The position numbers were made by a program, and so were the translations under genes. Below are positions 1 through 62,303 of a DNA stretch of 64,000 nt, in pieces (position 1 is the first letter of the stretch; every line of letters begins with the position of its first letter). Source of the DNA: Amphibalanus amphitrite (taxonomy: Eukaryota > Arthropoda > Thecostraca > Balanomorpha > Balanidae); the NCBI RefSeq assembly GCF_019059575.1, contig NW_024881568.1, positions 992,001 to 1,056,000 of the forward strand, written 5' to 3'. The notes under the pieces were generated by a model. The model was not told the origin of the DNA. It saw only the letters and a list, made by a program, of their open reading frames with translations, and made no database searches.

Positions 1-960
1 CGTCCTGTCCTTTTATCAGTAGAGCTCAACCAATGTATCAGATATCAACGTTCTGTCCATGTATCAGGCATCACAGCATCGGATATCAGCGACTTTCTAG
101 GTATCACGTATCATAGTACCAGTATAACGCCTTTTGGGGCGACTAACGGAGCGAGCGAGGGGGTGAGTCTTGCACGTGCGAAATTTCGAGGGGGTACCTC
201 CAACTGACTTGTGCACGGCACCCTACTGACCGGTTTCTAGCGATGTGCCAAATTTGAGCACAATCGGCCCAGCCGTTCTCGAGATCTGGAAGTGGCACCC
301 TGCACGTGCGCACGTGCAAAATGGGTCCCAACTGACTTGTGCACGGCACCCTACTAACTGGTCCCTAATCGTGTACCAAATTTGAGCGCCATCGGTCCAG
401 CCGTTCTCGAGATCTGGAAACGACCCCTGCACGTGCGCACGTGCAGCAGCACCCCAACTCTGGCACATGGATATGCAGTGCCTAGTGGGTGCCTATCTAC
501 ATGCCAACTTTCAGCGCAATCGGCCAAGTAGTTACCGAGATATTGCAACAATTACAAAACTGACACCTCTTCGTTTTGCACGTGGCACGTGCATAAGGGG
601 TCATCCACATGCATCGGGAATAGTCCAATACTTGGTAGAAGGAATGAAGCTACCCTACAAAATTTACCGCGTGTAAATCGGTCAAGTGGTTGCTGAGATA
701 TAAGCCTCGCAAAAGCGTCCGCACGGCCGGCCGGCCGGCCGGCCGCTCATACTCAGAAATTTCTGTTAATCTAAGGAAAGACTACGCTCGCTTCGCTCGC
801 TCCGTAATCAAAGATCAGCGACTTCCCAGTTCCCGTGTATCAGGTATCATAGTATCAGATATTAGCGACTCCATGTAACAGGGGTCATAGTATCGGATTT
901 CAGCGACTGTCTGTGCATCAGGTATCGCAGAGCTCGTCTATGCATAAGGTATCAGAGCCC
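1..960. repeat. Degenerate tandem repeat around element E1
   Basis: Positions 1-117 and about 816-960 consist of diverged ~33-36 bp units built on phrases such as catgtatcaggtatc and cggatatcagcgac. The E1 element (118-815) sits inside this array, so the array looks like its target. Because exon 1 of the downstream gene follows in mid-gene phase, this whole block probably lies in an intron of that gene. No coding potential is seen. Confidence 0.6.
118..815 (+). mobile_element. Repeat element E, copy 1 (twin E-box element)
   Basis: About 0.7 kb, closely matching an inverted copy at 60580-61274 and a more diverged copy at 61408-62303. The ends are related in inverted orientation (taacggagcgagcgag near the left, ctcgctccgtaa at the right). 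Inside are ~120-bp degenerate units, each with caaatttgagc, ctcgagatctgg and, twice, the exact 16-bp palindrome gcacgtgcgcacgtgc (302-317, 429-444). A (CCGG)-rich palindromic run lies at about 721-743. Class unknown; apparently non-coding and non-autonomous. Short ORFs in it are conserved between copies only because the DNA is. Confidence 0.7.
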
Positions 961-1112
961 TGCCCATGTACCAGGTATCAAATTCATCTATCTATAGGGT
1001 GGGACATGGGACGGCAGTGAGAGTGATAGATGTCGTTGCCAGGGGGAGGTGCTCACTGCGCCCGGAGAGGTATTATTCCTCTAACGTCTCGCCCCCCCCC
1101 CCTCCCCGTCAG

Positions 1113-4100
1113 ACGGTGGTGTCTCACGTGCGTCGTGTGGAGCTGGGCGGCGCCAACTACCAGCCGCCGGCCGACTGTCCTCTGCACGGCTGCACACCGC
1201 CTCTGAAGGCGCTCGTGCGGCTCGTACACAAACTGCACGACCTGCTGGAGGAGGAGGCCGACCCGAGGTCAGGGCGGTCAGAGGGGAGGCGGGTCGGCGG
1301 GCGGACAGATAGACACATTGGTCGATCCCTGGATGAGGCGGGGACGCCTGGTTAAGCTCGTGTTTTGTGCTCTTTGCGCCTTATGCTGTTGAGCCTTATA
1401 AAGAAGACATCCGCTTGCTTGGTGCTCAATTGTAAAGACATGTGCATTATTGATTACGATTCGATTTCCATACAGCTGTGCCTCTAGCTACTGTTATTCC
1501 TCAACTGATTTTGAGCTGCTGAGTTTTCTGCTGTCACTCTGCTGGTACTCTTTACCGCCCCCCACCACTGACCCTGAACTCCTCCCCTCCGTCTCTCCGT
1601 CCCCGGCAGTAAGTGCTGCCAGCGTCTGCTCTCCGCCATGAAGGGCTGCGTGTCCCGCGGCGCGCGCCTGCGACAGTCGGCCGTGGACCGGGCGGCCGCT
1701 GAACTGAAGGAGCTGGTCGGACGGCTGGCCGCGGACGGCAGCGGCGAAACGGACACTGCAGTGGTCGGAGGACCGGCCGTGCAGGTCTGTGGGGGCACGG
1801 GCGAAGTGCTGGGCGGGTGGGCGGCGACTACGGACAGACCGAATTAGATAGCACGTATAGAATGTTCTTCCATGCATTATATCGGATATCCTGCATGCGT
1901 TATTTGTAAGATCTAATTGGTTAGTCTACACAACCATGGGCAATAACGTCTGAAGCATCATTTGCCAATTGGATTTTAAGCCCAGTTTCCAACAGGCGAT
2001 CGGCAGCGATCACTCACCAATTGTGCTATCTGCCCGCCTCTCACAGTCTAACTCCCGTGTGTCCCCCCCCCCCCGTACCACAGCTGGTGCGCCGGCTGTG
2101 TGACCGTCTGTCGTGCGCCGCTCCCCCCGTCACCGACTACCTCAGCGTTCTGGAGGACGGTGTCACCAGTCCGGGTACCCCCGGCCGGCGGCCCGCCACA
2201 CTGCCCTCAGTCGTGTCCCTCTTCAGGTCAGTGCTGCCCGTTTGGAGGCATGCTTAATGGGGTCAACAGCCATATATGTTTTTATTATAATGAGCTGATA
2301 TTTTCCGGAGTGTCAATTTAACGATACAGCAATTAAGGGCAATGGATCGTAGCCATTGTGGAATTTTAACGTCCTTCCCCTGGACGCTGAACTGCTCGTT
2401 TGTTTTCGTTTTGTATTCATTCATTCATTCATTCATTCATTCATTCATTCATTCATTCATTCATTCATTCATTCATTCATTTGGTTAGGTATTATTTCAA
2501 TGAAAGAATGAATGAATTCAGTAATTAACTACTTCATTCATGAATTAGTCCATGAATTACTTTATTTTTCATTCATTCATTTCATTCATCATTCATTCAT
2601 TCATTCATTCATTCATTCATTCATCTCTCTGTGTCAGGACTCCGCCGGAGGTGGACGGGGAGGAGAGTAATGACGGCGTCGGCCTCTCGCTGGAGGAGCG
2701 ACTCAGAAGGAAGGGCATCTCACGCACCGGCGAGACGCCCACCTCCACCAAACGGTAGGTTGGAGAGTTAAAAACCTCAAACGGTAAGGGCCATGTTCCA
2801 TGGACCGTAGCTAATGGATTTAAGATAGCTTGCACATGAGCACCACATGAGCACCGCATCTCATACGCGAACTATATCAGTAATCAGACATTGCTGAACA
2901 TTGTCGATCGCATTGTTTCTAATTTGAATCGGCATCAGGTCTCTCCCTGGTACTGATTTTGTAATAAATCTCTGTTCCACCAGTGAATGTGTCTTAAACT
3001 GGGCCTCCTGGTCCGCCGAATTGCTGATTCGCCTCTGACCTTGTTCCCCGCCCTGCCGCAGGTTCGGCGCCTCGCTGGGCTGGCTGCCTGCTGAGGACCG
3101 GCCGGCCGGGGGCGCCGGCTCGCCCCTGGAGCCCACCCCGCCCCTGGTGGCCGGGCCCACCCTGGTCTGCTCTCGGTCGGGCACCAAGTACGCCGAGGGA
3201 GAGGGGGTGCGCGCACTCCGGGAGCTGCAGGCCGCCGACCGGGCCAGGCAGAAGGTAACGCTGAGAACGGGCATAAGGGAGGGGACGGGGTCTGGGAGAA
3301 CAGAGGGAGATGGGGTACCTCGTGGAAAGCATCGAGTCGGGGGACTAAAGCTGGTAGAATTGTTGTGTGCACTAAACTTACAGGCTGACAGGCAGGTCTC
3401 AAATCTCCCCGGATAGCGCGTTGTAATATGGATTGGGTAGCTGCTTTCGTCAGTTTATCATTAGAAGTAATTTTTCTTTCATACCAATTACAGATTGCGT
3501 TGCTAAAACATTTTTTTTCTGTGGCCTTAGGCTGTAATGCACAACTATTGTTTTATTCTCCTAAAAAATAATTTTTGAGAACACGTGAAAATCTGGCATG
3601 TTAAATCAAGCCGGGTTCCATAGAAAAGTTTTCCTTGTTACCGATTTCGAGACAAGCGTGAGGAACACGTGTTAATTTTGAATTTCCTGAAACTCCCGAC
3701 GTTTCAGGAGAGTGAGATTATGTCTCCGAAGACCTCTAGGGCTCCGAAGAAGCCCAAACGTTCTCTGTTTGACCCGGCACAAAAAGCTAAGATCGGCGAA
3801 CCGAAGACCAAGGCGAGTGACGTATCTAAGAAAAAGAGCGACACAACCAAAACAACTGCGAAGAAGAGGAAGACTGAAGCGGCCCAGGACCAAGAACACG
3901 TGTCTTCTCAGTCAGCGTCTGATCAGCCATTAGCAGCCAAAACGCTGATCCTTGAAGATGACGGTAAAAGTACCAAGCCAGTGACGAAGAAGCGGAAAAC
4001 TGAGGCCGCGCTGGATCAGGAGAATGTCTCTGTTTCGTCTGACGTCAACAAGCCAAAGTCTCAGCACCCGGCCCCGGGACGCAAGGCGTCGGCTATAGCA

Positions 4101-9288: not shown

Positions 9289-9400
<112 letters not shown>

Positions 9401-9516
9401 CGGGCATCGGGGATTTCTATATAGATGTTCAAACGACGATTAGCGCCGGTAGGCGCGGGAGGGTGACCTAGGACGGGCAGGGATTTCTATATAGATGTTC
9501 AAACCACAGTGTATAT

Positions 9517-10063
9517 TGTGGCTGGTGCCGTGGCGAGTCGTGCTCTAAGCCGGATGAAGCCGTTCCAGTGTTTGGGATTCGCAACTTGGGATTCCACACA
9601 ACGACGGGCTGGGAAGTTCCCTGATGTGGAGCCGTCTCCCCCAAACACTTAGATCGGCCAAGGATAGCGATGTATTTGAAACAGCATGAGCAAGCTATGT
9701 AGTGAACACAACGATGAAACCATAGTTCGTTTTGGCAAAGTTAAGGACAGTACAAAGCAGTGAGAAAACGTATATCAGAGCGAGAGATACTTTCTAGAAG
9801 AGTGCGTGAATGCCCACACGACGATGAACATTGTGATACATACACACGAACATACATTTCTAAAACATTAATAAATCGGACATAGAAAATGAACAAGTGG
9901 AGCAGAGCCATCTGGCGGATATCGCTGAACCTGCGCCTCGCGTCAGCTGCGACAGCAGCGCCACGTGAGGTCGACGGTGGCGCCGCCCCGCGTCGGAGCG
10001 CTCGCCAGTCGCCAGCGGCGGTAGTGCCGCGCCGCGTCGGAGAACGTGCGGCGGTGCACTACA
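9517..10063 (-). repeat. 3' LTR of the CsRn1-like element
   Basis: 547 bp, matching 14607-15153 with no difference seen. On the - strand it starts TGTAGTGCACCGC and ends CACCAGCCACA. A - strand polypurine tract, AGGGGGAGGGTGA (10064-10076), lies immediately upstream. Confidence 0.93.
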
Positions 10064-10076
10064 TCACCCTCCCCCT
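10064..10076 (-). promoter_or_regulatory. Polypurine tract (plus-strand primer)
   Basis: On the - strand AGGGGGAGGGTGA directly precedes the 3' LTR, the usual position for the RNase H-resistant primer of plus-strand synthesis. It also contains the TGA stop of pol. Confidence 0.75.
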
Positions 10077-13000
10077 AGAGACGGCACTGCGAACGTGACG
10101 TTAAGAAAACGCGTCGGTGGCCGTACAGCACGGCCGGAGCGGGTCGTCCGTAGGCACGGCGGTGGGGGCGCGGGCGGAGGCGGCGGCTGTAGCGGCAGGT
10201 CGCCACGCGGTGGCGGAAGCGGCGGCTTCGGTGCGCGAGGCGCTGGCAGGAGGAGCTCTGGGCCGGAGGCCGGTGTTTCCGAGTCGGCGGAACGCGCCGT
10301 GTCTTGGACCGCAGACGGCGATGCTGTCGGAGTTGGAGCAGGCGGGGGCCGTTCCAAGTGCGCCGGTTTGACTCGGTCGATGGAGATAACGTCTGAGCGA
10401 CCGCCTCGGTCCACAGTAACCGTCTTCGCTGATCTGTGTAGCACCTTGTATGGTCCGTCATAACGCGGGGCAAGCGGCGGCTTCACTGCGTCGTGACGCA
10501 CGAACACGTGCGAGGCGTGGTCCAGCGCGCGCGGCACGTACGACGGCGCGCTTGGTGCTGGTCGTGGTGCCGTCGGGCGCAGTGCCGCCATGGTGCGCTG
10601 AAGCTCGGCGGCGAATGATTCCGGCGTAGGAGGCGCGGTGGCGGACGGGGTGATGAGTTCACCAGGTAGGCGGAGAGGTGCTCCGTACACCAGCTCGGCA
10701 GTGCTGCAGCCCAGGTCTTGTTTGAGCGCCGAGCGGATTCCGAGCAGCGCCAAAGGAAGAGCCTCCGTCCAGCGGGCGGGCGCGGCGGCGCGCAGCGCGG
10801 CCTTAAGCTGCCGGTGCAGGCGCTCCACCATCCCGTTGGCCTGGGGGTGGTACGCGGTGGTCCGGCGCCGCGCGCAGCCCAGGAGAGTGGACAGCTCAGC
10901 CCAGAGCGCCGACTCGAATTGGCTGCCCCGGTCGGTGATGATCTCGTCCGGGACGCCGAACCGAGAGATCCAGCCGGAGATCAGCGCCCGGGCGACCTCT
11001 CGCGCCGTGATGCCACGCAGCGGGATCGCCTCCGGCCAGCGACTGTACCGGTCCACCACCGTCAGAAGATACGAGTAGCCCTCAGACGGCGGCAGCGGGC
11101 CGACCAGGTCGGCGTGCACTTGTCGAAACCTGTCGGCAGGTGGCGGGAACGAGGCGGGCGGCGCTGTCGTGTGCCGGTGGACTTTGGTGCGCTGGCACGG
11201 GACGCAGGTGCGCGCCCAGAGTGCGGCGTCCTTCTTCACCGACGGCCACACGAAACGCCGCGTGACCAGGTCGACGGTGGCGCGCACTCCCGGGTGGGCC
11301 AGATCGTGCACGTGCCGGAAGTAGGCGCGCCGGAGCGGTGCCGGGATCCACGGCCGCGGTACACCCTGGGACTCGTCGATGACCAGCGTGCGGCCGCTGG
11401 GGAGCCGGGCGTCTCTGAGTTTGAGCCCGTGCTCTGTCGAGCGGAAGCGCGCCAGCTCTTCGTCCTCTTGCTGGCAGGCTGCGAGCTCGTCGAAGTCGTC
11501 GACTGGCGGGCACGGTGCTGAGAGCATCGCCACTGTTCGACTCAGAGCGTCCGCAGCTGCGTTTTCTTTCCCAGGCACGTGCCTGATGTCGGTGGTGAAC
11601 TGGGAGATGAAGTCCAGGTGCCGGATCTCCCTCGGCGAGTAGCTGGCTGACCCGGACGAGACTGCCGACACGAGGGCCTTGTGGTCGGTGAAGATGGCGA
11701 ACTGGCGGCCTTCCAGAGTGTGCCGGAAGTGCTTGACCGCCAGATACGCCCCGAGCAGTTCGCGGCCGAAGGTGCTGTAGCGTGTCTCTGCTGGTTGGAG
11801 TGACTTCGAGAAGAAAGCCAGCGGCGTCCAGGTCCCGTGCGAGTGTTGCTGCAGGACAGCGCCGACGCCGGTGTCAGAGGCATCGACCTGCAGACTCAGC
11901 GCTGCGCCGGGAGTGGGGTGCGCGAGCTGCGTGGCCTGAGCCAGGGCAGCCTTCACGCGTTGGAAGGCGTCCTCAGCGGTTGGCGTCCACTCCACCGGCG
12001 CCGCGCGTTTGCGTTTCTGGTCCAGCAGGCGGTGAAGTGGTCGGAGGAGGCCGGCAGCACCAGGCAGGAACCGGTGATAGTAGGTCACCAGGCCGATGAA
12101 CCTACGCAGTTGGCGTTGCGTGGTCGGCTGCGGAAACTCCTGGACTGCGGCGACCTTCTCCGGCAGCGGGGCGATGCCGTCCGGGGACACATCGTGACCG
12201 AGGAAGCTGATACGGTTGACGCCCAGCACGCACTTCTTTGGGTTGATCGTGACGCCGAACTGGTCGAGACGTTCCAGTACCTGACGGAGGTGACGGCGGT
12301 GCTGCTCGACGGACGTGCTGGCGATGAGGATGTCGTCGATGTACACGTAGCAGCACGTCAGTCCGCGCATCACCTCGTCTATAAAGCGCTGGAATGTCTG
12401 ACTGGCGTTGCGAAGACCGAAGCTCATCCGCTGCATCTCGAATAGCCCGAACGGTGTGACGATGGCCGTCTTCGGGATGTCAGCGGGTTCGACCGGGATC
12501 TGATGGTACGCGCGGACGAGGTCGATCTTCGAGAAGATGGTACAGCCGTGCAGGTTCGCGGAGAAGTCCTGCAGGAACGGTATGGGATACCGGTCCGGGA
12601 CGGTGGCGGCGTTCAGGGCGCGGTAGTCGCCGCACGGGCGCCACTGTCCGGGCTCCTTCTTGGGCTCCATGTGGAGGGGCGACGCCCAGCTGCTCTTGGA
12701 TGGGCGGGCGACCCCGAGTCTGATCAGCTTGTCGAACTCCTGACGGGCGATGCGGAGTCGGTCGGGTGGCAAACGCCGAGGGTGCCCCACACGAGGAGGT
12801 CCACGTGTCACGATGTGGTGAGTGACGTTATGGCGCACGGGCAGGAGTTGCGCAGATGTGGCCGTCACTCGAGGGAACTCTCTAAACAAGTCTGCGAGAG
12901 TGGGCGCCGCGCACATGCGCACACCGACGGAGCCGATGTCGGCTCGGGTTCCCACGGCGCACGTCGTGCCGTGTTCAGCCTGGAGGAGCTGACGGCGCAT

Positions 13001-13360
13001 GTCCACCAGCAGACGATGATGGGCGAGAAAGTCCGCTCCCAAGATCGGCATCGATACGTCAGCGACCATGAAAGTCCACGGGTAGTCCACTGTTCCGAAA
13101 CGCACCGAAGTCGAAATAACGCCATGGAGCTTGATCTCTGTGCCGTTGGCTGCTTCCAGTCGAGGCGCGTCGGGCTGCTGCACGGTGGTGCCGTCGGCCA
13201 CGACTCGTGGTGGGACGACACTCACCTGTGCGCCGGTGTCGACGAGGAACCGCCAGTTCCGGGCAAGGTCGGTGACATAGAAGAGGGGCGCCAGTGTTGG
13301 CCGGCCCGTCTCCGCTGGCGCTAGCGCGGACAGGCGGGCTAGTTTCCCGACCAGGAGCAC
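10064..13360 (-). CDS. Pol polyprotein: protease, reverse transcriptase, RNase H, integrase
   Basis: An open frame of about 1098 codons. Counted from 13360: aspartic protease VDTGAQ at about 40-45; RT with YIDD at about 340-343 preceded by the usual [13 protein letters not shown] block; RNase H VDASDTG near 490, FTDHKAL and the [15 protein letters not shown] end; integrase H-H-C-C finger (HVHDLAH ... CVPC) near 680-715 and D-D-E residues near 748, 807 and 844 ([21 protein letters not shown]). The C-terminal tail is proline-rich. All catalytic residues I looked for are present. The frame has no ATG at its start; it overlaps gag in the -1 frame, so Pol is probably made as a Gag-Pol fusion by -1 frameshifting at 13342-13348. 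The stop codon abuts the 3' LTR. Confidence 0.93.
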
Positions 13361-14259
13361 GGCGGTCTGCAGCGGTGGGCCTCCGCGCCGTACTTCTGGT
13401 GGTACCAGCAGTACCCTTCATCAGGTGTCACCGATGCCGGTTGAGAACTGCCAGACGAGGCAGGTGCGGGTCGGCGCGGACGGGAGCGGGAGCGACCACG
13501 CCGAGGAGCGTCGGCACCGCCCCGCTGGAACACGGCTTCGATTCGTGCTACCGCAGCGGTGAGGGCGGTGACGGCAGCGGCCATGCCGGCGTTACCGCAC
13601 CCGCAGGCGGCGGGCGGTCCGGCGGCGGCCACCGCGCTGGCCGGCGGGGCGAGCGTGACCCCAGGGCCGGCCGGCGGGCCACAGGCGGCAGCGACACCGG
13701 CCGTCGGCGTGCAGACAGCAGTCACGGCGGCGCCGCCAGAGGCCTCCTGGAAGCGGTCGGCCGCGCTGGCCAGGTCATCAATGCCAGTGGCCTCCGGCAG
13801 CAGCGCGAGGGCGGCGCGGGTCGTCGGCGGCAGGCGCTGCAGGAACAGCGTCCTGAGAAGGCCGAGGTCGTGGCCCGCGCTGCCCAGCATGTGTTGCATG
13901 CTGCGCAACAGCTGCGTGGGCTTCCTGTCGCCCAGCTGGTGGTCGCGGAGGAGTGCCTCGAGGCGTGAGGCGCGCGACTGGGCCAGGCGCGTGCTCAGGG
14001 CCCCTTTTAGTTCTGAGAACGAACCGGTCTCGGCTGTTATCACGTCTCGAACTTGTGAAGCGACATGGACAGGCAGGTTGGCCACCAGCAGCCGGAACTT
14101 GTCGTGGTCATCCGTGATGCCGGCGACGGCGAAGGCACACTCGACCTGCACCAGCCAGAGCTCGGCTTCTTCAGGTGCGTAGGCCGGCAGCCGGAACGAC
14201 GCGAATGGCCGCGTCGGCGCGTCCTGGGCGGCACTCTCCGGCTCGATGGGTGACGGCAT
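13339..14259 (-). CDS. Gag protein with CHCC-type zinc motif
   Basis: 306 codons from the first true ATG (14259, MPSPIEPES). The frame is open further upstream only through a non-ATG codon. The N-terminal half shows the Ty3 capsid-like start ([19 protein letters not shown]) and a helical middle ([16 protein letters not shown]). The C-terminus has C-x2-H-x9-C-x3-C (CWYH ... HRC ... PC), the unusual CHCC form typical of CsRn1-like elements rather than the CCHC knuckle. Gag packages element RNA into particles. It overlaps pol by a few codons. Confidence 0.88.
13342..13348 (-). promoter_or_regulatory. -1 ribosomal frameshift heptamer GGGAAAC
   Basis: In the gag frame the - strand reads G GGA AAC TAG: a canonical X-XXY-YYZ slippery heptamer immediately followed by the gag stop (13339-13341). 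Slipping back one base gives AAA CTA GCC, exactly the pol frame. A GC-rich stretch with gcgctagcgcc follows downstream and could supply a stimulatory structure. Confidence 0.75.
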
Positions 14260-14277
14260 AGTCACTATATACAGCAA

Positions 14278-14586
14278 ACACTAACACTAGAGGCACACTG
14301 AAAGACTGTCGGTAATCACTAGGCGCTCGCCGCGCTCACTGTGCTGGCGCTCGCTGCGCTGCACTGCGTTGGCGCTCGCTGCGCTGCACTGCGTTGGGCG
14401 CTCGTTGCGCTGCACTGCGTTGGCGCTCGCTGCGCTGAGGCTAGGCCGCGTCACCAGCGCACTATTCACTGTTCGCGGCAGCGGAAGCCGGGTGAAGATC
14501 ACCCGTTCTTGCCGAGGCGATAGGGAGGCCAGGTCAAAGATGACCTCTTCTTGCCGAGGCGGAGACGATGACTTCTTGAGCTACCG
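14278..14586 (-). repeat. Element leader with 25-bp tandem repeats
   Basis: The untranslated leader between primer-binding site and gag. About 14330-14440 holds roughly four copies of a 25-bp unit built on ggcgctcgctgcgctgcact. Short ORFs through it are repeat artefacts. Confidence 0.75.
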
Positions 14587-14604
14587 ATCACGTCGGGGTC
14601 ACCA
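14587..14604 (-). promoter_or_regulatory. Primer-binding site, tRNA-Trp
   Basis: The + strand reads atcacgtcggggtcacca, equal to the CCA-tailed 3' end of animal tRNA-Trp, so the element RNA can pair with that tRNA over 18 nt. Two bases separate it from the 5' LTR. Confidence 0.85.
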
Positions 14605-14606
14605 TT

Positions 14607-15153
14607 TGTGGCTGGTGCCGTGGCGAGTCGTGCTCTAAGCCGGATGAAGCCGTTCCAGTGTTTGGGATTCGCAACTTGGGATTCCACACAACGACGGGCT
14701 GGGAAGTTCCCTGATGTGGAGCCGTCTCCCCCAAACACTTAGATCGGCCAAGGATAGCGATGTATTTGAAACAGCATGAGCAAGCTATGTAGTGAACACA
14801 ACGATGAAACCATAGTTCGTTTTGGCAAAGTTAAGGACAGTACAAAGCAGTGAGAAAACGTATATCAGAGCGAGAGATACTTTCTAGAAGAGTGCGTGAA
14901 TGCCCACACGACGATGAACATTGTGATACATACACACGAACATACATTTCTAAAACATTAATAAATCGGACATAGAAAATGAACAAGTGGAGCAGAGCCA
15001 TCTGGCGGATATCGCTGAACCTGCGCCTCGCGTCAGCTGCGACAGCAGCGCCACGTGAGGTCGACGGTGGCGCCGCCCCGCGTCGGAGCGCTCGCCAGTC
15101 GCCAGCGGCGGTAGTGCCGCGCCGCGTCGGAGAACGTGCGGCGGTGCACTACA
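14607..15153 (-). repeat. 5' LTR of the CsRn1-like element
   Basis: 547 bp, apparently identical to 9517-10063. It should contain the promoter and poly(A) signals; aataaatcgg is on the + strand only, and I see no clear TATA box on the - strand. Confidence 0.93.
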
Positions 15154-18504: not shown

Positions 18505-18851
18505 AAATACTTTGTGAATGACCTGTCCTTGAAATTGTATGCAGGATATATTTTTTAATATTTTTTTTAATATAGGGGAGAGTGGGGTAAGATGCCCAGG
18601 GTGGGAAAGACGCCCCACCCCCTCTAGCGGCGAAACAAAGAATCGAAACTGGAAATTAATGTTCTTAGCGTAAAGCGGAAGCCTGCCTTGTTAACTGCAC
18701 AAAAATTTGCGAGGCTCACTTGGGCAACGGTTGGCTGGTGATTGCATATTTTTTATTTGCTGCTTTCAAAAAATATTTTGGTGTCAAAACATTGTAAATA
18801 TCAAAGAAGGTAGATAATTTTGCGTCCCTTGCTATAGTCGTGATAAATTAA

Positions 18852-19885
18852 CCCTCGCCGGACCTATTGGTTTTCTACATACGCGCCGGCCGAGGGGGGG
18901 GGGGCGGGTACGACCCCCCCTCGCCGTTTCGCCCCTGGTGGAGCTAGCGCGTCGCGGAAAAAACGAGTGTGTGCGCCGTTACGAGACGCAGAGATTGGTA
19001 CCCGATTTTAAGGTCCTAGGTCAACCGGTGACCTCTGAGGTCAGGTCAAGTGCCCCAGGGTACGGTTCAGTTTTTGGTGAATAACTTCGCATAAAACGGC
19101 CGCAGAGCCGCGATTTTAGCAGCATCGTGTTCGCCTTGCTCAGGCGCGTCGAATGATATACTTTTTGTTCGGGTCAGGTCAACTTAGGGTGTTGACCTCA
19201 GGTCAAGGTCAGGTCAGCACCCCCAGGTCACGAAGTTGGTCGAAAGAGGTCATGCCGCATATCATTCGATTCGGCAGGTCTTCCTGAGTCCATTGGTGGC
19301 TTTCCCGACTCGCTAGCTCAATTTGATCGGGAGTTATTGACGAAAAACTAATATGACCTTGATGACGTCATAAATGACGTCACGGAAGGTCAACATTGCA
19401 AAAGTGATGCATCTAACCTTGCAAGGAGTGCATCAAATCACGATTCTATATGCTTGATATAGTTGGAGATCGTTTCCGGCGCCAGAATAGCAGTTTGAAT
19501 TTTTCCCCATTGACTTATAATGGTGAGGTCACGAAAATGACCTGACCTCATATGACTTTTAGGAAAAATCCGAGATATACAAGTTGTGAGACTCATAATG
19601 GATACTAGATCCTGCAAGTTTCATTTCCCTGTGACATCTCCTCTGGCAGTGAGGGCGTTGCGAAGTTGCGACATCTGAAGACCGTGCAGAGGTTCACTTA
19701 TGACGTCATAGGTCAGTGACCTGACCTGACCCAAAAATGCGGTTGGTGTCAAAAGATGCGGCTTGGATCAAAGGTCAGGTATGCCAAGTTTCAGCTCTCT
19801 ATCGCCAGCGTGTTCGGAGCTATCGCGAAAAAACCCTATGGGGGGGGGCGGCACCCGCCCCCCCCCCCCCCTCGGCCGGCGAGGG
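18852..19885. mobile_element. piggyBac-like MITE, copy A
   Basis: Termini CCCTCGCCGG / CCGGCGAGGG are flanked by TTAA on both sides (18848-18851, 19886-19889), the piggyBac target signature, with C/G homopolymer tracts just inside each end. The 1034-bp interior is non-coding and full of AGGTCA-type half-sites, e.g. ttgacctcaggtcaaggtca at 19193-19212. It is nested in element G. Confidence 0.8.
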
Positions 19886-20139
19886 TTAACATGCGTGTAC
19901 TGTGTCCCAAACAGTTTGTTTCAGGGTGTAGTTTTATGGCTAACAAATTGTACTGATTTAATGTTACCTCGGTACCTTGGGGTAAGATGCCCCCTGTCCT
20001 GATGGGGAAAGACGCCCCCCTAAATCCGTAGGCTGTCCTTCAAGCAGCCCGTCAAATCATTTATTACATACCTGTGATGAGAGACAAAAGCCGATCTGGG
20101 ACTATTGAGAGTCCAGTACGGTCGGGTGCTCCCCATGCC

Positions 20140-20470
20140 GGTCTCTCGGCCCACACAGCGACTTTTTGGGCGGCATCTGACTCTGAGAGCCCTTACGACG
20201 GCCTCTGTGGGCCACATTATTGGCTCCAGGGCCCCTCACGACATCCTTTGAGGGCTCCCACGTTGGCTCCACGGGCCGCACTGGCATCTAAGGTCCCCAC
20301 GATGGGCTCGAGGGCCCTCAAGCATCATGAAGACCTATAAGGGCCCCACAGTGGTCTCCGAACGCCACCACGGAGGCTTGTTTGGCCGCGCTGGACTATG
20401 ATGGCCCTAACGCTGACCTCTGAAGCCCCTTACGACTACTTTTGAGGGCCCTTACGATGACGTTTGGTGT
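20140..20470. repeat. Degenerate ~28-30 bp minisatellite
   Basis: Diverged units of the type gagggcccy-acgatggcctc. They resemble the monomer of the large array at 42735-44460, although the two sit in different transposable elements. Confidence 0.6.
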
Positions 20471-28758: not shown

Positions 28759-28776
28759 TGGCGCGGTCGGTAAGCT
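28759..28776 (+). promoter_or_regulatory. Putative primer-binding site
   Basis: It begins with the canonical TGG directly after the LTR (TGGCGCGGTCGGTAAG). The matching tRNA is not recognised. Confidence 0.5.
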
Positions 28777-29107: not shown

Positions 29108-29123
29108 GGAATTTTTTAGCGTG

Positions 29124-33882: not shown

Positions 33883-36800
33883 TATATAAGTATCTAGCAT
33901 AGCACTAGCTAGCTGACCACCAATAATCTAGTTTTTGAAATTTGAATCACTTATATAATTTGCGAATGTGCATTGATTTTCGGCCGCAAGTTTCGGCACC
34001 TCTGTAGCTTTCACTGGCGCCAGTTTGATGTCTTGCGAATAATTCACCATTTCCAAAAATCCACCACCGCGACCGGTTGGCCGATGCCATCTGTGGTCCC
34101 AGGTGCGAGTCTGGCCCGCCCGCGGTGTTATTTTGGGAGCCCCACGCGATACCACGACTATATATCATATAGTCAGATATCGCGAGCTGTTTCAGCTGAA
34201 GGTGTGCGTGCCTATAATGTTGAAATCTCACACACGGTGGCTTCACGCGAGAATACCTATGCATTAACGACGCAGATGTTGGCTCCACGTAATGATTCTG
34301 TAGCTTTGAAAACACTGGAGGACAGAAAATTATGTCGTCAACAATGTCACAATATTTATCCGATTTAATATCAATACCAGTACCATTTGCTCCGGCCGAT
34401 TCACACAACAGTAGAGTGGAAATGAAGTAAGTCGAGGCTACTGAAAGTTTCGTCACGATAGGCTGATTTTTTACCTTAGTTATTCGCGAAAAACCGAGGG
34501 GTTCCATCCAACCCCTAATAGAACCAGGGTAAAATTTGGGGTTATCATTTCAAAGAAATAAGATAATATATCCACAACCTTACATATTAAAGCTACGTTC
34601 ACTACAGCAGTCAAAACACTTAGTTCGGGGACGTGAAGCCTACTCACCATAAGGCGCCATGTTCGGAGCCCGCGGAGGTTCTTCGCGTAACTTTTCCCGA
34701 TGTGTCGTCGTCCTTAGGAGCTGGGAGTGCCGGGCCGATGTGCCGGTCAGTCACCCTCAGTTGTAAACCAGCGGGATGTTACTTAACGCCTAGAGGATGA
34801 TGAAAGAATTAAATGACGCTCTTACATGGAGAAATGGGCTGATTCAAAAAGTCATAAAACAGCCTCAATTGATACGGTGTTCGACGTGAAACGCAATACG
34901 TTTATGAATGACGAAAAATGAGCTAGTAACATTTTACCTATTTTCGATACCTAAATGGCAATGTAAAATGTTTCCGCCAGTAATCAACTATCATGCTTTA
35001 TTTTGCGGTCAACCGCTAAAGTAGCGCTCGGTATCCTCAGATGACCTTCTTTCACCCCGGCCGACCGGTCACGGCCGCCACAGAGCCGCCCCGTGACCCC
35101 CGGCCACTCCTCCCGCCCCCTCCGGCCAGGTGGTGAGTCAGCTCGCCCTGACGAGCCGACGACACCGTCCGGTATCGGCGGCCTCCGCGGCCGGGCGCCG
35201 GGGGCCATCTCTGAGAAAACACGTCTAAAATTATCAGCGCCGCGTGCCGCGCTCGGCCGCCTCACGCGCGTGCGTGTCGGCCCTTCCGGTGTGTGCGTGC
35301 GCCGGGGCGGAGGCGGCGCCGGGCTGGACTGGCCGGCAGAGCTGTTTGTCGGCTCTCTGGTCACCAGATGAGCGGATGTCGGTCCGTCCACGGTCAGACA
35401 GATGCCTCCCCGCCGACGCCACTCCGGTAATGGGGTGAAATGCAGCGGCGGCCCGGGAGGATGTGCTCTGTTAGTTGGCTTGTTTGATTCCGTTTGTTCT
35501 TTGCGGACTCGTCGATATTGAGCTTTAATCATGGGTAGATTTTTCGTTAGTCTTCATTTTATTTAATGGTTATCAAGCGGTGATTGTGGTACCTATATTT
35601 TATTTTATTTCATTATGATTTATTTTCACGGAAAACAAATATTTTTTATCCATCCAGATTCCAGACTACCGCTATCGGTTTTTGCGGACGATACGTCCGC
35701 TTACAAAATGAAATTCCACAGAAAGATTTGAAAACGCTTGATAGGGTAGCTGTGGATCCTTACACTGTGGAGTGTGGCCTATAAATGGGGAAAAAGCCGA
35801 AGTCTAAGTAGTTGCATAAACGGCAACAGAAAAAACGAGCAACAATAACTGATTGATCATTCTTAGATGCAGTGTATTGCTGCATATAATTGAAGGGCTA
35901 ATTTTACTGTCATCTCAGTGTATCGGTACGGTTTGATCTGTCATGTTCTGGCCTGTCTGACGCGGGTTTCCGGCTTCACACGGAAGTGCAGGGCCCGGCA
36001 GTGGGGGTTACTGGGGAGTTTAACTCGGTCTAATCTGCCGCCGACTCTGTCTGGGCTGCTGACCATTAATTAGCTGCTGCGGCTGACCCATAATTGGCTG
36101 CGGCCGGCAGCTGGCTCCACTGACCGGTCAGGTGGGATAACTCCGCAGAGGGCACGGGTCAATCAAACAGCGCCGTCTCCCCCCGCCCCCGCCCCCGCCC
36201 CGCCGGGCACCAGGCCGGCCGGCCGGCAGGGGCGGAAGTGCCCCACTAATGACCGTGTTTGTAAACGGCCGAGACGACGAGAACAGCGGCCGATCTAATT
36301 AGGATCCACCGAATGCAAGCACACAACGATGGAAATTAAAAACAAACCCGAACGCTGCCGATCAGCGCCGCTGGTTGCCATGGCAACAGAAGTCGCTGCC
36401 GGGTGCCTGTCATACCAGCGTCGAGAGCGGTGCCTGTTGCGGAAGCGGTCGTATCGGAGGTTAACCAACCTGCGGTAATGGCAGGCGATGGCGGTCAGTT
36501 ATTTATTAGGGAGCTGAAGGGGTGGAGGGTTTGCCCAGGGAATGAGTACATACCTGGGGTATTACAGGGGGTGTGGACAGCTGCTGTTGGCGGTTTTGCC
36601 ACGGGCACGGGCGCGCGGGCCGGCCCCGGCAGCACGGGATCACCCTGATCTGTAATGAGACGGTGGGTTATCCGCATGACTGCAGATGCGGCCTCAAACA
36701 CCAGCCAGGTATGGGCGAGCACGGCGAATCAATTACGGGGGCAAGGCCGCCGAAAACCACCAGGGTAATCTTTGAGCGCCGCCCGTGATGGAGCGAGCGC

Positions 36801-38217: not shown

Positions 38218-39773
38218 CCAAAAACCCCAGTTCCCACGTCTCTGGACGATTGTTGTGCGAAATAATAGACACCAATGAGCTCAATCAAGGCCTTAATACA
38301 TATCTGTTAAAAACAATGTAGCTCCGCAACTCGATGCACGTGTGATATAAATTCTATCGGCTGTCCCAATGTCACGTTTAAGTGTGTCGTAATGTGCATG
38401 GCAAGTATGATGATAGGCGCTGTCTTGGGGATAGGACATTTTAACAACTGCTTTAGCACAATTGTTAGGTAGAATAATTGGCGCCTTGAGACGCGAAAGT
38501 TAACTACACTCGCTCAGCCGCGCGATGGTCCGTGCTCCCACCCCACCTCACTCCCCAGCCCTCGCCAGCCGCCGCGCCGCGCCGACCCGAGCCATGCCTC
38601 CGGGCTCGGCCCTCACCGCTGCGCTGACGTCACAGGCGGCCCACATCGCCTTACAGCCACTGACCCAGACCGGTGGCATACGGTGTGGGTAGGCTGTGCC
38701 GCTTGACAAGTAAGTGAAGCGGCACAGTCTACCGGTACCAGGCGGCTGCTGCCAATGCTGAGCCATAGGAACCCGGTGGATAAGGAGTTGTGGAACATCA
38801 ATCTGCCCCCGAGTGTACCTATGGGCCAGCGCAGTTTTGAAGAAGTGTTGCGTATTTTTACACATTTGACCGCGTAAACTGGTAGCAGCCATTTCGTTAT
38901 ACAACCCATGTGATTTCCAAAATCTTCCTCGGTTTTCTTTGGCAATGAGCGGCGATCATGCGTTTTTTGCCCTCTTCGAGTAAAATACGGTACATACAGA
39001 AAATTCGTGATAAAATTGAACCAGGCTCGTTTTACTATGTCACGCCAACGCTAACATAAAGTTTAAAGCACACAAAGTAAGACTGGATAGACAATTTGAA
39101 GCTTTCTTGCAAGATTATGATATGAGCTGAGATGCTAACCGTCCTAACCGGGAGGTTCGGGCCACCCACCCCCGGTGATCCTAAATAATTGAAATGATGC
39201 TTTCATTGAATGTACTCTTCAATAAGTTTTATTTTTGTCGCACAAGGACGAAAATTTAAGTACAAATTGCATTCGAACAGATAAATATTATTTATCTTAT
39301 TTCATGGAACATTATTAGAGTTTGCCAAAATACATATGTGCCCGCAAGTGACCTCCATGAAGTAAGCTGTTGAGCGCTTATGCGGTACCTGGGCTCTAAG
39401 AAAGCTCAAGGTAGAGCCCAGCTACAAGTATTATCTCAATGTCGAGAAAAGAATGTGAAACATGACACCGACCCATACGTCCCGGGCATGGCCCATCCTC
39501 CCGGTGTATTTTGATGGATCGAAAAAGCGCATGATTTATTTAAAGTTATCTCGAGATAAAATAGTTTATCCCAAATACCTAATATCAGGGCCACTTTAAA
39601 GGCGAAAGGCAATCTCACGTACACAGAGTGAAAAACCGGGTCTAGCCCCTGCCCAATGGAAGAAAATTGCCTTTTCACAAAACCGGCCCATACCTCCCGG
39701 GTCTCCCCTACGTAACGACATTTTAGGACTATGATGATTAGCGAATATCTTGAACTTTGTAACCATCATTTAA

Positions 39774-40955
39774 CCCTCGCCCCGTTGGGGGGGGCCATTT
39801 TGGCCCCCCCCCTGTGGTTTTTCCTGAATAGCAAGAAAACGGCGGCGCGCAGCGCCGCCAAATTTTCAGTACCTTTCCGGGCATCAATTTGACACCTTCA
39901 CACCAAATTTCAAGTCTTAGGTCACCTTAGGTCAGGAGTTATTGAGGTCAAACTGAGGTCATGTTCGAGCAAAAATGAGCAAAAAACGTGCAATCTTGAA
40001 ATGCTCACCAAATCTACAGTTATCAAGCAATTTCAAAGTTCTTTATATGGTCTAATAGACAAAAAGCGGCGCTACAAAACTGCTATCTCGGATTTTCAAA
40101 ATTTTGGGTTTTTGACCCAAAAAATTCAAAAAAATGATTTTTTTTAGAAAAACTAAAAAAAAATCCAAAATTTTTCCGAATTTCGAAAAAACCGGAATAT
40201 ATGTGATAGTCCCTGCGCTCTTCTATATACATACCAAATTTCAGATCGATATCTCGTTTTTTGGCCAAGTTATAGCGAAAAAACTGTTCAAAAATGATGA
40301 CGTCAAATTTTTGAACTCAATTTTTAGCGATTCTAGACCTCGTACGGCAAAACAAAGACCACCATTGAACTCCCCGTGACGAGCTGCATCGATTCGATAC
40401 CCATTTTATGCAAAAATATCAACTTTGAAATTTGACCTTTTTTGACCTGACCTTGACCTGACCTTGACCTGACCTTGACCAAAACGTGACCTAAGCTGGC
40501 CCCAAAGGCTGCCTGACCCACATAATCGCATTTGTCATGTAAAATGGACCATAAAACATGTATCACACGACACTTTCATATTGTGACCCCCCAGTGACCT
40601 GACCTCAGTGACCTGACCTGGTATCAGTGACCTCAACTAGCAAAATATGTGTTTGAAGAACATTTCCCCATCAATGATTTTCAATGAAATGCATTTTACT
40701 CGATTTTACAACGCATTTCTTGAAATGCCTGTAAACGGTGAAAATTGGACCTTTGACCTGACCTGTGACGTCATCGGTTTGACCTAGGTCAATAAAATTG
40801 GGTCACAAGGTAGTTCCCTGATAGGGCTATCCAACACCGTTTGCCGCTTGTCGCTACGTTGCGTGGTTCTCGAGATCTTAGGGGGGGGGGGCCAAAATGG
40901 CCCCCCCCCCCCCCCAACGGGGCGCGTTGCTCGGCAGAGCCCAACGGGGCGCGGG
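39774..40955. mobile_element. piggyBac-like MITE, copy B
   Basis: Ends CCCTCGCCCCGTTGGG / CCCAACGGGGCGCGGG are flanked by TTAA (39770-39773, 40956-40959). 1182 bp, non-coding. G-tract hairpins sit inside both ends (about 39786-39811 and 40880-40914). The interior has many AGGTCA half-sites, including three tandem 11-mers tgaccttgacc at 40448-40480. Confidence 0.82.
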
Positions 40956-40959
40956 TTAA

Positions 40960-48827: not shown

Positions 48828-51474
48828 CCAGACATGTGCTTGGATCCGGAAAAATGGATCTGAGATCCGATCCCATGGATCCCGATCCGAGATCCATTCA
48901 GATCATAGATCCAACCCCTCAATTTTGTCGAGAGATCTACTGGGATCATAGATCTGACCCTTCAATTTTGTCGCTAGATCCACTCGGATCATAGATCTGG
49001 CTCCCCAATTTTGTCGTGAGATCCATTGGGATCATAGCTCATAGGTGCTCAAAATGTTAACAACTTTCTTTCATAAGAAGTTTTGAATACCAAAGTATGG
49101 TTAGAAACAAACAATCTTATACAAAGGACATATTAGTAAAGGCATCCAGTTACATTATACAGAATACAAAATAAAGGAGGCTCATGACGGTCACAACTTG
49201 AGAGAATTGAGTGACATGAAGATTGTTCACAGTTCACATACCTACCAACAGAAAAGTCCTCCCACCTTAACATTAGATTTGAGTTGAGATAGCCAAATTG
49301 GTGGCCATGACCTGAAAATACCGGTTTGGGCACTCACAACATCGAAAAATGCTTTAATTCGGAGATATCGAATTTCAAACTTGCAGTTTTCGGATTCTAA
49401 GGGGCTAATGCATTGGTATGCCCCCTTAGAATTTGTGACGTCAGCGGAGATCTAACGATTTTAAATCTTTTACTAAAACGTTTGGTAGCACGCGGTGGTA
49501 TATGCTGCTTTGCGCGCAACAAATGCCGCACTTTCAAATAAAGTCGCTAGGAACAGCGGAGATCTCAAAAAGTAAACAAAAGTAAAAGTATAATATCTTG
49601 AAAACCGGTGAATATTTTTCGATGAAATTTGGTAGATATTCGTTTTTGCTCTTTCTGAACCGAGCGACATCACTTTCATGCCAATTCATTAACTTTTTTG
49701 AAGGTGGGAGGGTCCCTTTAACAATTAACATAGAGGTAAGTCAAAGTAATGACTAATGAACAATACATAACTAGGTACCTACCACATCACAATTCATGTT
49801 AGAATCTACATAATGATATTGATAAGACAATCTTGCATTAGACAACCATGAGGCTTTCCAGTTTCCACTTTCCAGCTACCACAATTGATTGATAAACAAT
49901 AAAAGATGATAATGACACATGTGGCTTGGTTAGGTAAAGGTATTTCAATCTATTGAAAGAAATATTTGATAAAATAAACTGAGATATAAACAAAAGTATA
50001 AAAATATTCAACAGCCTGCGGAAGCGATGGGAAGCGAAATATCAATTGTAATGGCCTTGGATATTTACCGTAAAATGATTATTCAGTATATAAATAGAAC
50101 TCGTGACGTCATTTCAAATGACAAATGAGCTAGGCGTTCTACCTTCGAGTATAATGAAAATAAATAAAAAATCAAACTGGAAATTCAAAAGTCTGGAGTT
50201 TTTTTTTTTAAAGAATGTTCATTTTTTCTGCCTCACATAATTTTACGATACGATTGTTTGTGAATATCATCTTTGTAGCGTTGAATTTAATGACGTAAAC
50301 GTAAGCTGAAACGGTATTATATGGCCCAGAGCGGTGTGCGCCTTGCATTTTTGTTTTATTCATTTTTCAAAAGAATAACAATATCTTACGTCATTAGTTT
50401 AAAGAGCCTATTACGGGGAATCTTTTGGAATCATTACGGTTTTGGTCAAATTAAGATGTTTCATTGGTCAAACGACAATGACGTAATAAAACCATATTAC
50501 CAAAACGTGAGCTGTGAATTTCGTTTGTCTTTTTTTGGGAGGCTCTCTCATAACAAAAGCACAGCATGGCACCACACACGTGGCACGGTGCCAAATGTAG
50601 GTAATCTGAAGAAGTTGATGCCATTTTATTTGGAAAGTATTAGAGGTTGGTTGCTTTTCTTACTAAATCGAAATTGTGTTGCACATACTAATAGCTCATA
50701 CGAACATTCTGGATTGGGATTTCATACCTACCTGGCAGAAGTGGATTGCTGCATGTTTTTAACAAAACTGACCTATTTGGCTTCCAGGTTTGATTCCCTA
50801 ACATCTGTCCATAGGCGGCAGAACAGGGGGGGGGGGGTGGCACCAGGGTACAGTGCCCCCCATAGATTTTGGCATTTTAACATGAGCCCTACTGGCGTTG
50901 CATGGAAAGAATGGGACCGAAATGAAAATCTGCAGTGCCCTGCTGCCACTGCATCTGTCTGTACTGCTTGTTCATTGAATTAAAGTGGCTGTAGCTTGTT
51001 GATAAGATTGTCATCAGTGCTGTCATGAAAAAGTTACAATTGGTCACAAAAAGTAGCAATATGCATGTTCTTGGTTTATTTTAAATGTAGTACAAATGTT
51101 GTTTATTTAAATTCAAATTTAATGATGATATCTAATGATTACTAGTGGTCTTAACCAATAACCATGTCCACAAGTGATAATTCTCAATTGTATTGCACTG
51201 TAAGTTGTACAATTATGTAGGATAGGGGTTTCATTGGCTACATGTTGTCGTGAGATCTATACAGATCATAGGTCCTCCACAAATTTTTGCCCGCTGGATC
51301 CACAGAGATCATAGATCCGACCCCTAAATTTTGTCGAGAGATCCATTCGGATCATAGATCCAACCCCTGAATTTTGTCGAGAGATCCACCCGGATCATAG
51401 ATCCAACCCCTCTATTTTGTCGAGAGATCCACTGAGATCATAGATCCAGCTCTCGGATCCAAGCACATGTCTGG
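48828..51474. mobile_element. DNA element F with 21-bp TIRs and subterminal 43-bp repeats
   Basis: 48828-48848 (ccagacatgtgcttggatcc plus g) and 51454-51474 are perfect inverted copies, flanked by tcctga on both sides (48822-48827, 51475-51480), a 6-bp target duplication. Inside each end lies an array of ~43-bp units (gatcatagatccaacccc, attttgtcgagagatcc) at about 48890-49045 and 51240-51450, in inverted orientation to each other. The AT-rich interior has one ORF of 220 codons with no recognised domain. Superfamily unassigned. Confidence 0.82.
50810..50951 (-). mobile_element. hAT-like MITE 3
   Basis: 142 bp nested in element F. Ends cataggcggcag / ctgctgccactg; perfect 8-bp duplication catctgtc (50802-50809, 50952-50959). 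Its core is the reverse complement of that in MITEs 1 and 2. Confidence 0.87.
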
Positions 51475-60579: not shown

Positions 60580-61274
60580 TTTATTACGGAGCGAGCGAAG
60601 CGAGCGTAGTCTTTCCTTAGATTAACGGAAATTTCTGAGTATGAGCGGCCGGCCGGCCGGCCGGCCGTGCGGACGCTTTTGCGAGGCTTATATCTCAGCA
60701 ACCACTTGACCGATTTACACGCGGTAATTTTTGTAGGGTAGCTTCATTCCTTCTACCAAGTATTGGACTATTCCTGATGCATGTGGGTGACCCCTTATGC
60801 ACGTGTCACGTGCAAAACGAAGAGGTGTCAGTTTTGTAATTGTTGCAATATCTCGGTAACTACTTGGCCGATTGCGCTGAAAGTTGGCATGTAGGTAGGC
60901 ACCCACTAGGCACTGCATATCCATGTGCCAGAGTTGGGGTGCTGCTGCACGTGCGCACGTGCAGGGGGCGTTTCCAGATCTCGAGAACGGCTGGACCGAT
61001 GGCGCTCAAATTTGGTACACGGTTAGGGACCAGTTAGTAGGGTGCCGTGCACAAGTCAGTTGGGACCCATTTTGCACGTGCGCACGTGCAGGGTGCTGCT
61101 TCCAGATCTCGAGAACGGCTGGGCCGATTGTGCTCAAATTTGGCACATCGCTAGAGACCGGTTAGTAAGGTGCCGTGCACAAGTCAGTTGGAGGTACCCC
61201 CTCGAAATTTCGCACGTGCAAGGCCCACCCTCTCGCTCGCTCCGTTAGTCGCCCCAAAAGGCGTTATACTGGTT
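60580..61274 (-). mobile_element. Repeat element E, copy 2
   Basis: Close inverted copy of 118-815, including both twin E-box palindromes (60947-60962, 61074-61089) and the CCGG run at about 60648-60669. Outside the element the flanking sequences differ, so the boundaries are real insertion ends. Confidence 0.75.
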
Positions 61275-61407
61275 TCATCATTCGAATGAAATGCTCTCCG
61301 GAGTTGTTAGTCCATTTTACACTCCATTCGGTACCTACTCCTTATTCGAAACAATAGCATTCGGATTTAAAAGTGTCTTGATTTTGCGTAACGTTCATTT
61401 TAGTTTA

Positions 61408-62303
61408 CCAGTAAAACGCCTTTTGGGCGAAGAACGAGCGAGCGAGATAGTGAGCCCTGCACGTGCGGAAGGGCGAGAGGGTACTAACAACGGGCTTGTG
61501 CAAAGCACCCTTCTAACCGGTCGCTAGCGGTGTGCCAAATTTGAACGCAATCGGCCCAGCCGTTCCTGAGATCTGGAAGCGGCATCCTGCACGTGCGCAC
61601 GTGCAAGCGGGGTCCAAAATGACTTTTGCACGGCACCCTACTAACCGGTCCCCAACCGTGTACCAAATTTGAGCGCAATCGGCCCAGCCGTTATCGAGCT
61701 CTGGAAACGCCCCCTGCACGTGCGCACGTGCAGTAGCACCCTAACCGCAACACATTGGAATGCATTGCCTGGTGGGTGCCTACCTCTATGCCAAGTTTCA
61801 GCGAAATCGTCCCAGTAATTACCGAGTTATTAAAATGGGAACAAATTTGACACCTCTTGTTGTTGTATTTTGCACGTGCACTGGGGGTGACCCACATGCA
61901 TCGAGAGTATCCTATTTTTGGTAGAAGGGATGCAGCTACCCTACAAAACTTACAGCAAGTCAATCGCCCAAGCGGCTGCTGAGATATGAGCCTCTCAAAA
62001 TCGCTACTTTTGCAAAACAGCTTGAACACCCTTGACTTTTCACGTGGCACGTGCCACGACGGTCACTGAGACGTATCAAAAGTAGTCACTTACGGGGTAG
62101 AAGGGATGGGGCTACCCAACAAAAAAGACCGCAGGCCAATCGGTCCAGCGGTTGCTGAGATATAAGCCTCTCAAAAGCGTTACAGGCCGGGCCGGGCCGG
62201 GCCGGGCCGGGCCGGGCCGGGCCGGGCCGGGCCGCTCATACTGAGATTTTTCCGTTATATTGAAAAGACTTCGCTTCGCTCGCTGCGCTCGCTCGCTCGT
62301 AAT
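61408..62303 (+). mobile_element. Repeat element E, copy 3 (longer, diverged)
   Basis: Same architecture in + orientation, with twin E-box palindromes at 61589-61604 and 61716-61731. An additional internal unit makes it about 0.2 kb longer than copies 1 and 2. In place of the CCGG run it has a (gggcc)n run at 62186-62234. Confidence 0.7.
62186..62234. repeat. (GGGCC)n array in element E copy 3
   Basis: About ten pentamer units at the position where copies 1 and 2 carry a CCGG palindromic run, suggesting replacement or expansion at a preferred site. Confidence 0.95.

Follow-up and report, generated by a model that had tools for sequence, protein, structure and literature searches.

Repeats and transposable elements of different construction in the genome of Amphibalanus amphitrite (Thecostraca; Balanidae) share a phrase in which a word such as AAATTT is followed, exactly 31 nucleotides (nt) after its start, by a word such as GAGAT, and this fixed spacing is real and found genome-wide. 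The phrase was noticed in a stretch of 64,000 nt (assembly GCF_019059575.1, contig NW_024881568.1, positions 992,001 to 1,056,000 of the forward strand), here called the window, whose own numbering is used below. At all eight places where a sequence-only reading had reported it, the second word begins exactly 31 nt past the first, as read in the sequence. The first word is AAATTT at 250, 378, 61537, 39905, 40236 and 49630 (minus strand), AAGTTT at 19786 and AACTTT at 506, and the second is GAGAT for 250, 378, 506 and 61537, GAGCT for 19786, GAGTT for 39905, AAGTT for 40236 and AAGAT for 49630 (minus). When AARTTT followed by RAGNT was counted on both strands of the window at spacings of 10-60, the predicted excess appeared, with 12 pairs at 31, 4 at the runner-up spacing and a mean of 1.08, while 50 first-order shuffles gave a mean of 0.64 and no more than 2 pairs at 31, with a maximum of 5 over all spacings.

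By reading, 7 of these 12 pairs belong to units of one element, called E, and the spacing was therefore tested on DNA that had not been used in forming the idea, namely 20 stretches of 10 kilobases (kb) from 20 other contigs (200 kb; loci are labelled L), with element E and a satellite of locus L041 masked (7,652 of 200,000 bases). Here AA[ACG]TTT followed at 31 by [AG]AG[ACT]TA gave 14 matches in 10 sequence families, against a mean of 0.80 families (standard deviation 0.91, maximum 3) at 60 other spacings; one of the ten (L036, minus, 9721) resembles a chance match at the end of a copy of another element, F. The looser words AARTTT and RAGNT gave 9 families at 31 against a mean of 3.3 and a maximum of 7. 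Without masking, a bigger peak stands at 28 (35 matches against 22 at 31), and 9 of the 12 spacing-28 matches shown come from the single satellite array in L041.

The whole assembly (807,550,619 bases in 2,644 contigs) was also searched for patterns with reversed controls. AAGTTT-N6-GAT-N16-GAGT has 9,138 matches (reversed, 26), and the pattern shortened by one base has 207 (reversed, 21), most of those listed looking like one-base deletions of one family. GATCGG-N6..20-GAGTTAT has 10,830 (reversed, 105), and among its first 100 places 78 have the gap equivalent to 31, 17 belong to one other family with a gap of 16, and 5 have gaps of 11, 12 or 14. The form found in E alone occurs 16,576 times (8,231 + 8,345; reversed, 0), and a second form, CCAAATTTC...GTT-N3-GA, 819 times (reversed, 0), its first ten matches all being E-like. 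Since the places listed for both the AAGTTT and the GATCGG searches are mainly those of one family, G4, the family count rests on the masked 200-kb sample instead; apparent new families among the listed AAGTTT matches include those at C1:257953, C1:1423139 and C1:2334544. The 17 places with the other gap belong to a family of the type GATCGGGTCATGTCAGGTCACGGAGTTAT (for example C1:1375220), in which the two words are set three bases wider.

Families were discovered by the words AARTTT with RAGNT or RAGWTA, or by a profile seeded with the word-found families, which added those named Bend, G7 and G8. At a score of 11 this profile had 104 real and 0 reversed matches, the 104 including about 30 satellite copies and the seeds, with E-like copies kept apart; the weakest family of a later profile scan, at 10.5, is on a par with the control (10.3). 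Close spellings of the phrase, as six patterns in viral contigs and two in prokaryote contigs, had no matches, and element E gave only 27-base matches at an expectation value of 0.7 in five phage records. Similar strings may occur in repeats of other arthropods. Nothing in the titles and abstract beginnings of the literature pointed to the phrase, by which the existence of such a paper is not disproved.

Elements that carry the phrase

Element E is present in the window as three copies, each with three good units at intervals of about 128 base pairs (bp) and another one or two that are degraded:

118..808, plus strand: element E copy 1, left end ACCAGTATAACGCC, right end CTCCGTAA
250..287, plus strand: phrase of E unit a, read in the sequence
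378..415, plus strand: phrase of E unit b, read in the sequence
506..543, plus strand: phrase of E unit c, kept in flanks unlike those of units a and b
660..701, plus strand: degenerate phrase of E unit d, first word out of register
60580..61273, minus strand: element E copy 2, with three good phrase units
61406..62305, plus strand: element E copy 3, a divergent subtype, with phrases at 61537, 61665 and 61793 and weaker ones near 61950 and 62122

In the listed alignments, copies of nearly full length begin at about 114-118 and extend to about 807-813. Neither inverted ends nor a target duplication were seen by eye in 24 usable left ends (25 listed, one at a locus edge being dropped) and 13 right ends, which E has in common with Helitrons; Helitrons end in CTRR after a hairpin, whereas E ends in ..CTCCGTAA or, on the other strand, in ..ATACTGGT. 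Counted from the phrase start, the four blocks between -4 and 38 show a match of 0.6-0.9 between unit c and units a and b; the other ungapped blocks match at 0.05-0.5, except from -24 to -12 (0.5-0.67). The flanks of E show no similarity above z 5 to any of the 14 other representatives of phrase-bearing families.

Most of the other carriers are miniature inverted-repeat transposable elements (MITEs) flanked by TTAA, to which the following features of the window belong:

18848..19889, plus strand: MITE A, TTAA at both ends included, ends CCCTCGCC...GGCGAGGG
19786..19823, plus strand: phrase in MITE A, adjoining the right end
19840..19866, plus strand: G-run/C-run hairpin of A, between the phrase and the right end
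39770..40959, plus strand: MITE B, TTAA at both ends included, ends CCCTCGCC...GGCGCGGG
39828..39865, minus strand: phrase in the left end of B (Bend), second word TTGCTAT, hairpin at 39787-39811
39905..39942, plus strand: internal phrase B1, without a hairpin
40236..40273, plus strand: internal phrase B2, hairpin at 40286-40316
40862..40881, plus strand: half phrase GTTCTCGAGATC (second half), adjoining the G/C hairpin of the right end of B, first word out of register
34445..34482, plus strand: degenerate copy of family G4, second word one base later, hairpin at 34497-34516, no TTAA seen at the end
49258..49721, minus strand: element F, TTAA at 49718-49721, the far TTAA absent in the window copy
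49593..49630, minus strand: phrase in F, pointing inward, without a hairpin

TTAA at both ends and inverted ends of the form CCY...RGG characterize piggyBac-type elements, and both A and B have them, with inverted ends that match. Families G3, G4 and G8 also have TTAA at both ends, with inverted ends 0.9-1.2 kb apart that are related to those of A and B, and for F four copies at L loci have both TTAA and 17-bp inverted ends AGGGACCCTCCCACCTT. In G2, G7, L005, L007 and L009, TTAA was found at the near end alone; G1 has the hairpin without TTAA, and in G5 and G6 no TTAA was seen. Where a TTAA was found (ten families), it lies 89-101 nt past the phrase start. Many families share the phrase, a G/C hairpin and RGG-TTAA, and flank similarity is significant among several (for example A-G8, A-G3 and G2-G3), while the ends of F, E and A/B are mutually unrelated. 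One phrase copy, AAATTTCACGCCGATACGCGG..., at L006 1114 (plus) is shortly followed by CAGACGCAGGCACGCACAGACA, which we take to be a microsatellite-like tail of the kind seen in insect repeats.

A third type of carrier is a tandem repeat of about 153 bp (L051, L052), which holds GATCGGCCCAGTAGTTCCTGAGTTAT in the register of the phrase and has the first word altered to TATTTT or TGTTTT in most units. The sequence-only reading had placed the strongest independence between E, F and the MITEs, and this stands in part, as E (without inverted ends), the TTAA-type MITEs and the ~153-bp repeat differ in build. The separation of F from the MITEs was overstated: A, B, G3, G4, G8 and F all have TTAA at both ends, and independence among these is therefore a weak claim.

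Anatomy of the phrase and its surroundings

The phrase extends over about 45-75 nt and reads AAnTTT (0), T14, TT (26) and RAGnTAT (31-37), then often A-rich sequence up to 48. Over 14 weighted families (the L041 satellite and G4c being left out of the column profile and of the conservation and periodicity tests) the columns that stand out are AAnTTT (0-5), T14, T26, T27, A32, G33, T35, A36 and T37, with weaker conservation of T at -29 and -6 and of A/C at 45-48. T14, T26 and T37 are kept although they were part of no word pair used for discovery; A36 belonged to one such pair. The middle, earlier described as variable, is so only in part, because T14 and the TT at 26-27 are also kept and the unit exceeds 31 nt. 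Conservation is uneven: 13 or more of the 14 families agree in 8 of the 46 columns, whereas neutral star descent, simulated with the same mean conservation, yields 0.9 such columns (maximum 4).

Across families, both column information and AT content, assessed up to about 80 bp, peak at 10.6-10.9 bp, which suggests that the AT-rich words of the phrase recur every ~10.5-11 bp. Once the search columns are taken out, the P values for periods of 10.2-10.9 are 0.0025 and 0.0205 for information and 0.0275 and 0.0005 for AT content, and for any period 0.076, 0.189, 0.103 and 0.015, the third of these tests peaking at 6.2 bp instead. The proposal that 31 nt represents about three helical turns thus agrees with the 10.6-10.9 bp peak, but helical phasing is modest evidence, because the any-period P values are 0.015-0.19 and one of the four tests peaks elsewhere.

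Profiles built from one type of carrier recognize others. A profile of TTAA ends only, with their close relatives, gives six E units scores of 20-30, above all 525,942 reversed-control positions, of which the top five score 7.5, 8.4, 9.0, 9.5 and 16.6; B1 (15.3), F (13.0), B2 (10.7) and G6 (10.6) beat all control positions but one. Conversely, with a profile of E only, G1 (27.6), F (23.5), A (17.1), G2 (16.9) and, barely, G1b (8.6) exceed the control maximum of 7.9.

No conserved RNA helix was found in the phrase (best excess 0.60, against null maxima with a mean of 0.55 and a largest value of 0.69 in 60 permutations), and 18 of 20 phrases have a fold z above -2. In two TTAA-end families, Bend and G8 (L033 8033, minus), the phrase middle is a GC palindrome, GGCGGCGC..GCGCCGCC, unlike in other families, and these two phrases fold strongly (z -4.0 and z -3.3, respectively).

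Downstream of the phrase, palindromes are also seen in the units of E:

301..318, plus strand: palindrome TGCACGTGCGCACGTGCA, 51 nt past the phrase start of unit a
427..446, plus strand: palindrome of unit b, 3' of its phrase
577..593, plus strand: palindrome TGCACGTGGCACGTGCA, 71 nt past the phrase start of unit c
near 724-745, plus strand: CGGCCG palindrome of unit d, 3' of the degenerate phrase

A perfect stem of at least 7 bp is present in 40-nt windows 50 nt past the phrase start in 11 of 16 representatives (random-window probability 0.051). When representatives are grouped by likely common origin, a grouping that involves judgement (L006+247 is possibly a variant of E), 5 of 12 groups have a palindrome, differing in sequence, that starts 49-59 nt past the phrase start: the TTAA ends, E units a/b, E unit d, B2/G5 and satellite L041. 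The P value, 0.0007 given a base rate of 0.067, is uncorrected for the choice of the 40-nt window after looking and counts three E groups separately. The stems are unlike in sequence (TGCACGTGCGCACGTGCA, CGGCCGG.., GGGGGG..CCCCCC and GTTCAAAAAT..ATTTTTGAAC), and those of E units a/b and d differ too. These observations suggest that in several groups the phrase is accompanied by a palindrome.

What the phrase may be

The reading that we favour, tentatively and at somewhat less than even confidence, is that a DNA-binding protein or assembly docks at the phrase as a composite site, contacting one helix face over ~45-75 bp, and that in several groups the downstream palindrome belongs to this site. 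A protein site with multiple contacts would be expected to show such features: words on one helix face across several turns, spacers that vary, a lack of RNA pairing and often a palindrome nearby. In TTAA-type MITEs the phrase would lie just inside the terminal hairpin as part of an end complex, most likely recognized by a piggyBac-like transposase or by a host protein derived from one. The position of the module beside the terminus in A and B fits such a complex, B having it in full at its left end and its second half beside the right-end hairpin. The site was probably first a part of TTAA-element ends, and the module would later have come to lie inside E and the ~153-bp tandem repeat, either by capture or through a host factor that these repeats exploit; we infer one of these two routes since a piggyBac-like transposase is not expected to move E or a tandem repeat as such. 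Presence inside E and in a tandem array favours a factor that acts on many repeats, and module capture explains it nearly as well. The protein itself, its identity and any benefit to the elements are what we infer. A broader version appears unlikely to us, in which the reader is a host protein, perhaps derived from a transposase by domestication, its composite site is helically phased, ~75 bp long and combined with the downstream palindrome, and elements of different classes and satellites keep or acquire that site as a genome-wide docking system that much exceeds the CENP-B box in size. If a single protein does read the site, one factor would connect many thousands of repeats across the 807-Mb genome. 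This would matter for the question of how different classes of non-autonomous element multiply and why satellites and transposons share motifs; for binding assays, the spacing rule is a sharp prediction.

Several results weigh against a docking site. Columns 0-5 and 31-35 (and A36 in one pair) were used for discovery, and the uneven conservation is partly ascertainment. Many phrase families are one TTAA class, and the phrase of F points away from the element end. Eleven other representatives do not rise above the control with the E-only profile (Bend, G3, G3b, G4, G4b, G7, G8, B2, G5, G6 and L041 lie at or below its maximum), B1 ties with the control maximum, and G5 and the L041 satellite fail the TTAA-end profile too. 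In E, small indels depress the downstream flank match (units a and b match at 0.09 from 48 to 70), and in 15 near copies the three phrases vary by 0.014, 0.037 and 0.030 against 0.033 for the whole element, units a and b having been fetched by the phrase itself. B1, F, G6 and two L006 cases have no such palindrome, E unit c and the 153-bp repeat are marginal, and the groups that have it include two from E as well as L041.

Common descent or capture without present function is an alternative that we consider less probable: an ancient terminal module of one TTAA lineage, phrase and hairpin, would have been inherited by A, B, F and other MITEs, recombination or template switching would have carried it into E and the tandem repeat, and the rigid spacing would reflect ancestry only. 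The TTAA at both ends in six families and at the near end in five more, the common series of phrase, G/C hairpin and RGG-TTAA, and the flank similarity between several families all agree with this. On the other hand, E keeps the core with its flanks dissimilar to all 14 representatives, the ends of F, E and A/B are unrelated, and the anchor columns are far more conserved than the spacers, in part through ascertainment. It is improbable that the phrase is merely bendable DNA whose AT-rich words, one each 10.5-11 bp, seat a nucleosome with no sequence-specific protein; AT content phased near 10.6-10.8 bp and tandem units of 128 bp (E) and 152-153 bp would suit this, but AAnTTT, RAGnTAT and T14 are more specific than a choice of AT versus GC, and the wider AT test is the one that moves to 6.2 bp once the search columns are removed.

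A structured RNA element, with the phrase and a 3' stem-loop transcribed from these repeats, would account for the stems of unlike sequence that 5 of 12 groups have at a nearly fixed distance and for the good folding of single copies such as those of Bend and G8; the missing conserved helix, the unremarkable fold of most phrases and the finding of no Rfam family in the window at gathering score make it very improbable. The TTTCAG of some phrases resembles an initiator and AG[AT]T[AC] a downstream promoter element (DPE), and a core promoter would also hold its TCA initiator and DPE at a fixed spacing, which is A+1 to +28. As read in the sequence, AG[AT]T follows the A of TTTCA by 25 nt, where a DPE needs 27, and E units a and b read TTTGA, so that a promoter is hardly credible. 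A coding origin was rejected by reading, since the best frame contains stops in several families and the second codon position holds the base of AAnTTT that varies most. A tRNA-type A box was likewise rejected by reading, its consensus fitting only a few families.

Some known systems resemble the phrase in part. The CENP-B box is likewise a short motif in satellite DNA, with a reader protein related to pogo transposases, but it is 17 bp long with a different consensus, TTCGnnnnAnnCGGG, against ~45-75 bp for the phrase. As an identity for the phrase it was rejected: the window has 9 matches at up to 1 mismatch (18.7 expected), none of them on a phrase. PiggyBac-type elements with subterminal repeats are like A and B in having TTAA at both ends, CCY...RGG ends and the phrase near the ends; unlike such repeats, the phrase is also found inside elements, in E without a TTAA duplication and in a tandem repeat. 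The DINE-1/mini-me elements of Drosophila, likened here by their description only, have a conserved core of 33 bp, later extended over 90 bp and thought to be functional for transposition, and they resemble the present case as non-autonomous elements with a conserved core, which is there confined to one element type (PMC2374699, in the parts available). The pearl elements of bivalves are modular with tandem units, one having a palindrome near the repeat junction, and related satellites contain conserved motifs; the parts consulted of that report (PMC5139131), which also describe a motif similar to the CENP-B box in two divergent nematode satellite monomers, mention no phrase of fixed spacing that pearl elements and linked satellites would have in common with TTAA MITEs. 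Lepidoptera specific core sequences are similarly short sequences repeated beside many microsatellites, but one of them, LSCS1, corresponds to the coding 3' end of RTE retrotransposons (PMC2887409).

Other features of the window and the sample

Two retroelement-like units, with frames as read, occupy 9516-14905 and 28500-33877, with open reading frames of 1098 and 312 amino acids on the minus strand and of 1501 amino acids on the plus strand. Both are flanked by direct repeats, reported as 100% identical over 300 nt and 259 nt, and the insertions are therefore apparently recent. Element F is nested within a larger element at 48828-51474, which has inverted ends CCAGACATGTGCTTGGATCCG, arrays of a 43-bp GATCC repeat at both ends and a TCCTGA duplication.

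In the 200 kb of L031-L050, the words TGACGTCA (67 against 2.9 expected), AGGTCA (506 against 92) and AGGTCAGGTCA (55 against 0.1) are over-represented. Words of these types, which we take to be basic leucine zipper-like and nuclear-receptor-like sites, are also present in the window at 19000-19800 and 40440-40800, and MITE interiors look packed with them. With L041 left out, the top over-represented 10-mer of the sample is GAGGGCCCTC. Additionally, words of the type GAGGGCCC are found in tandem arrays of ~21 bp and of 194-197 bp, both in the window (42750-44250 and 20140-20490) and in L031-L050.

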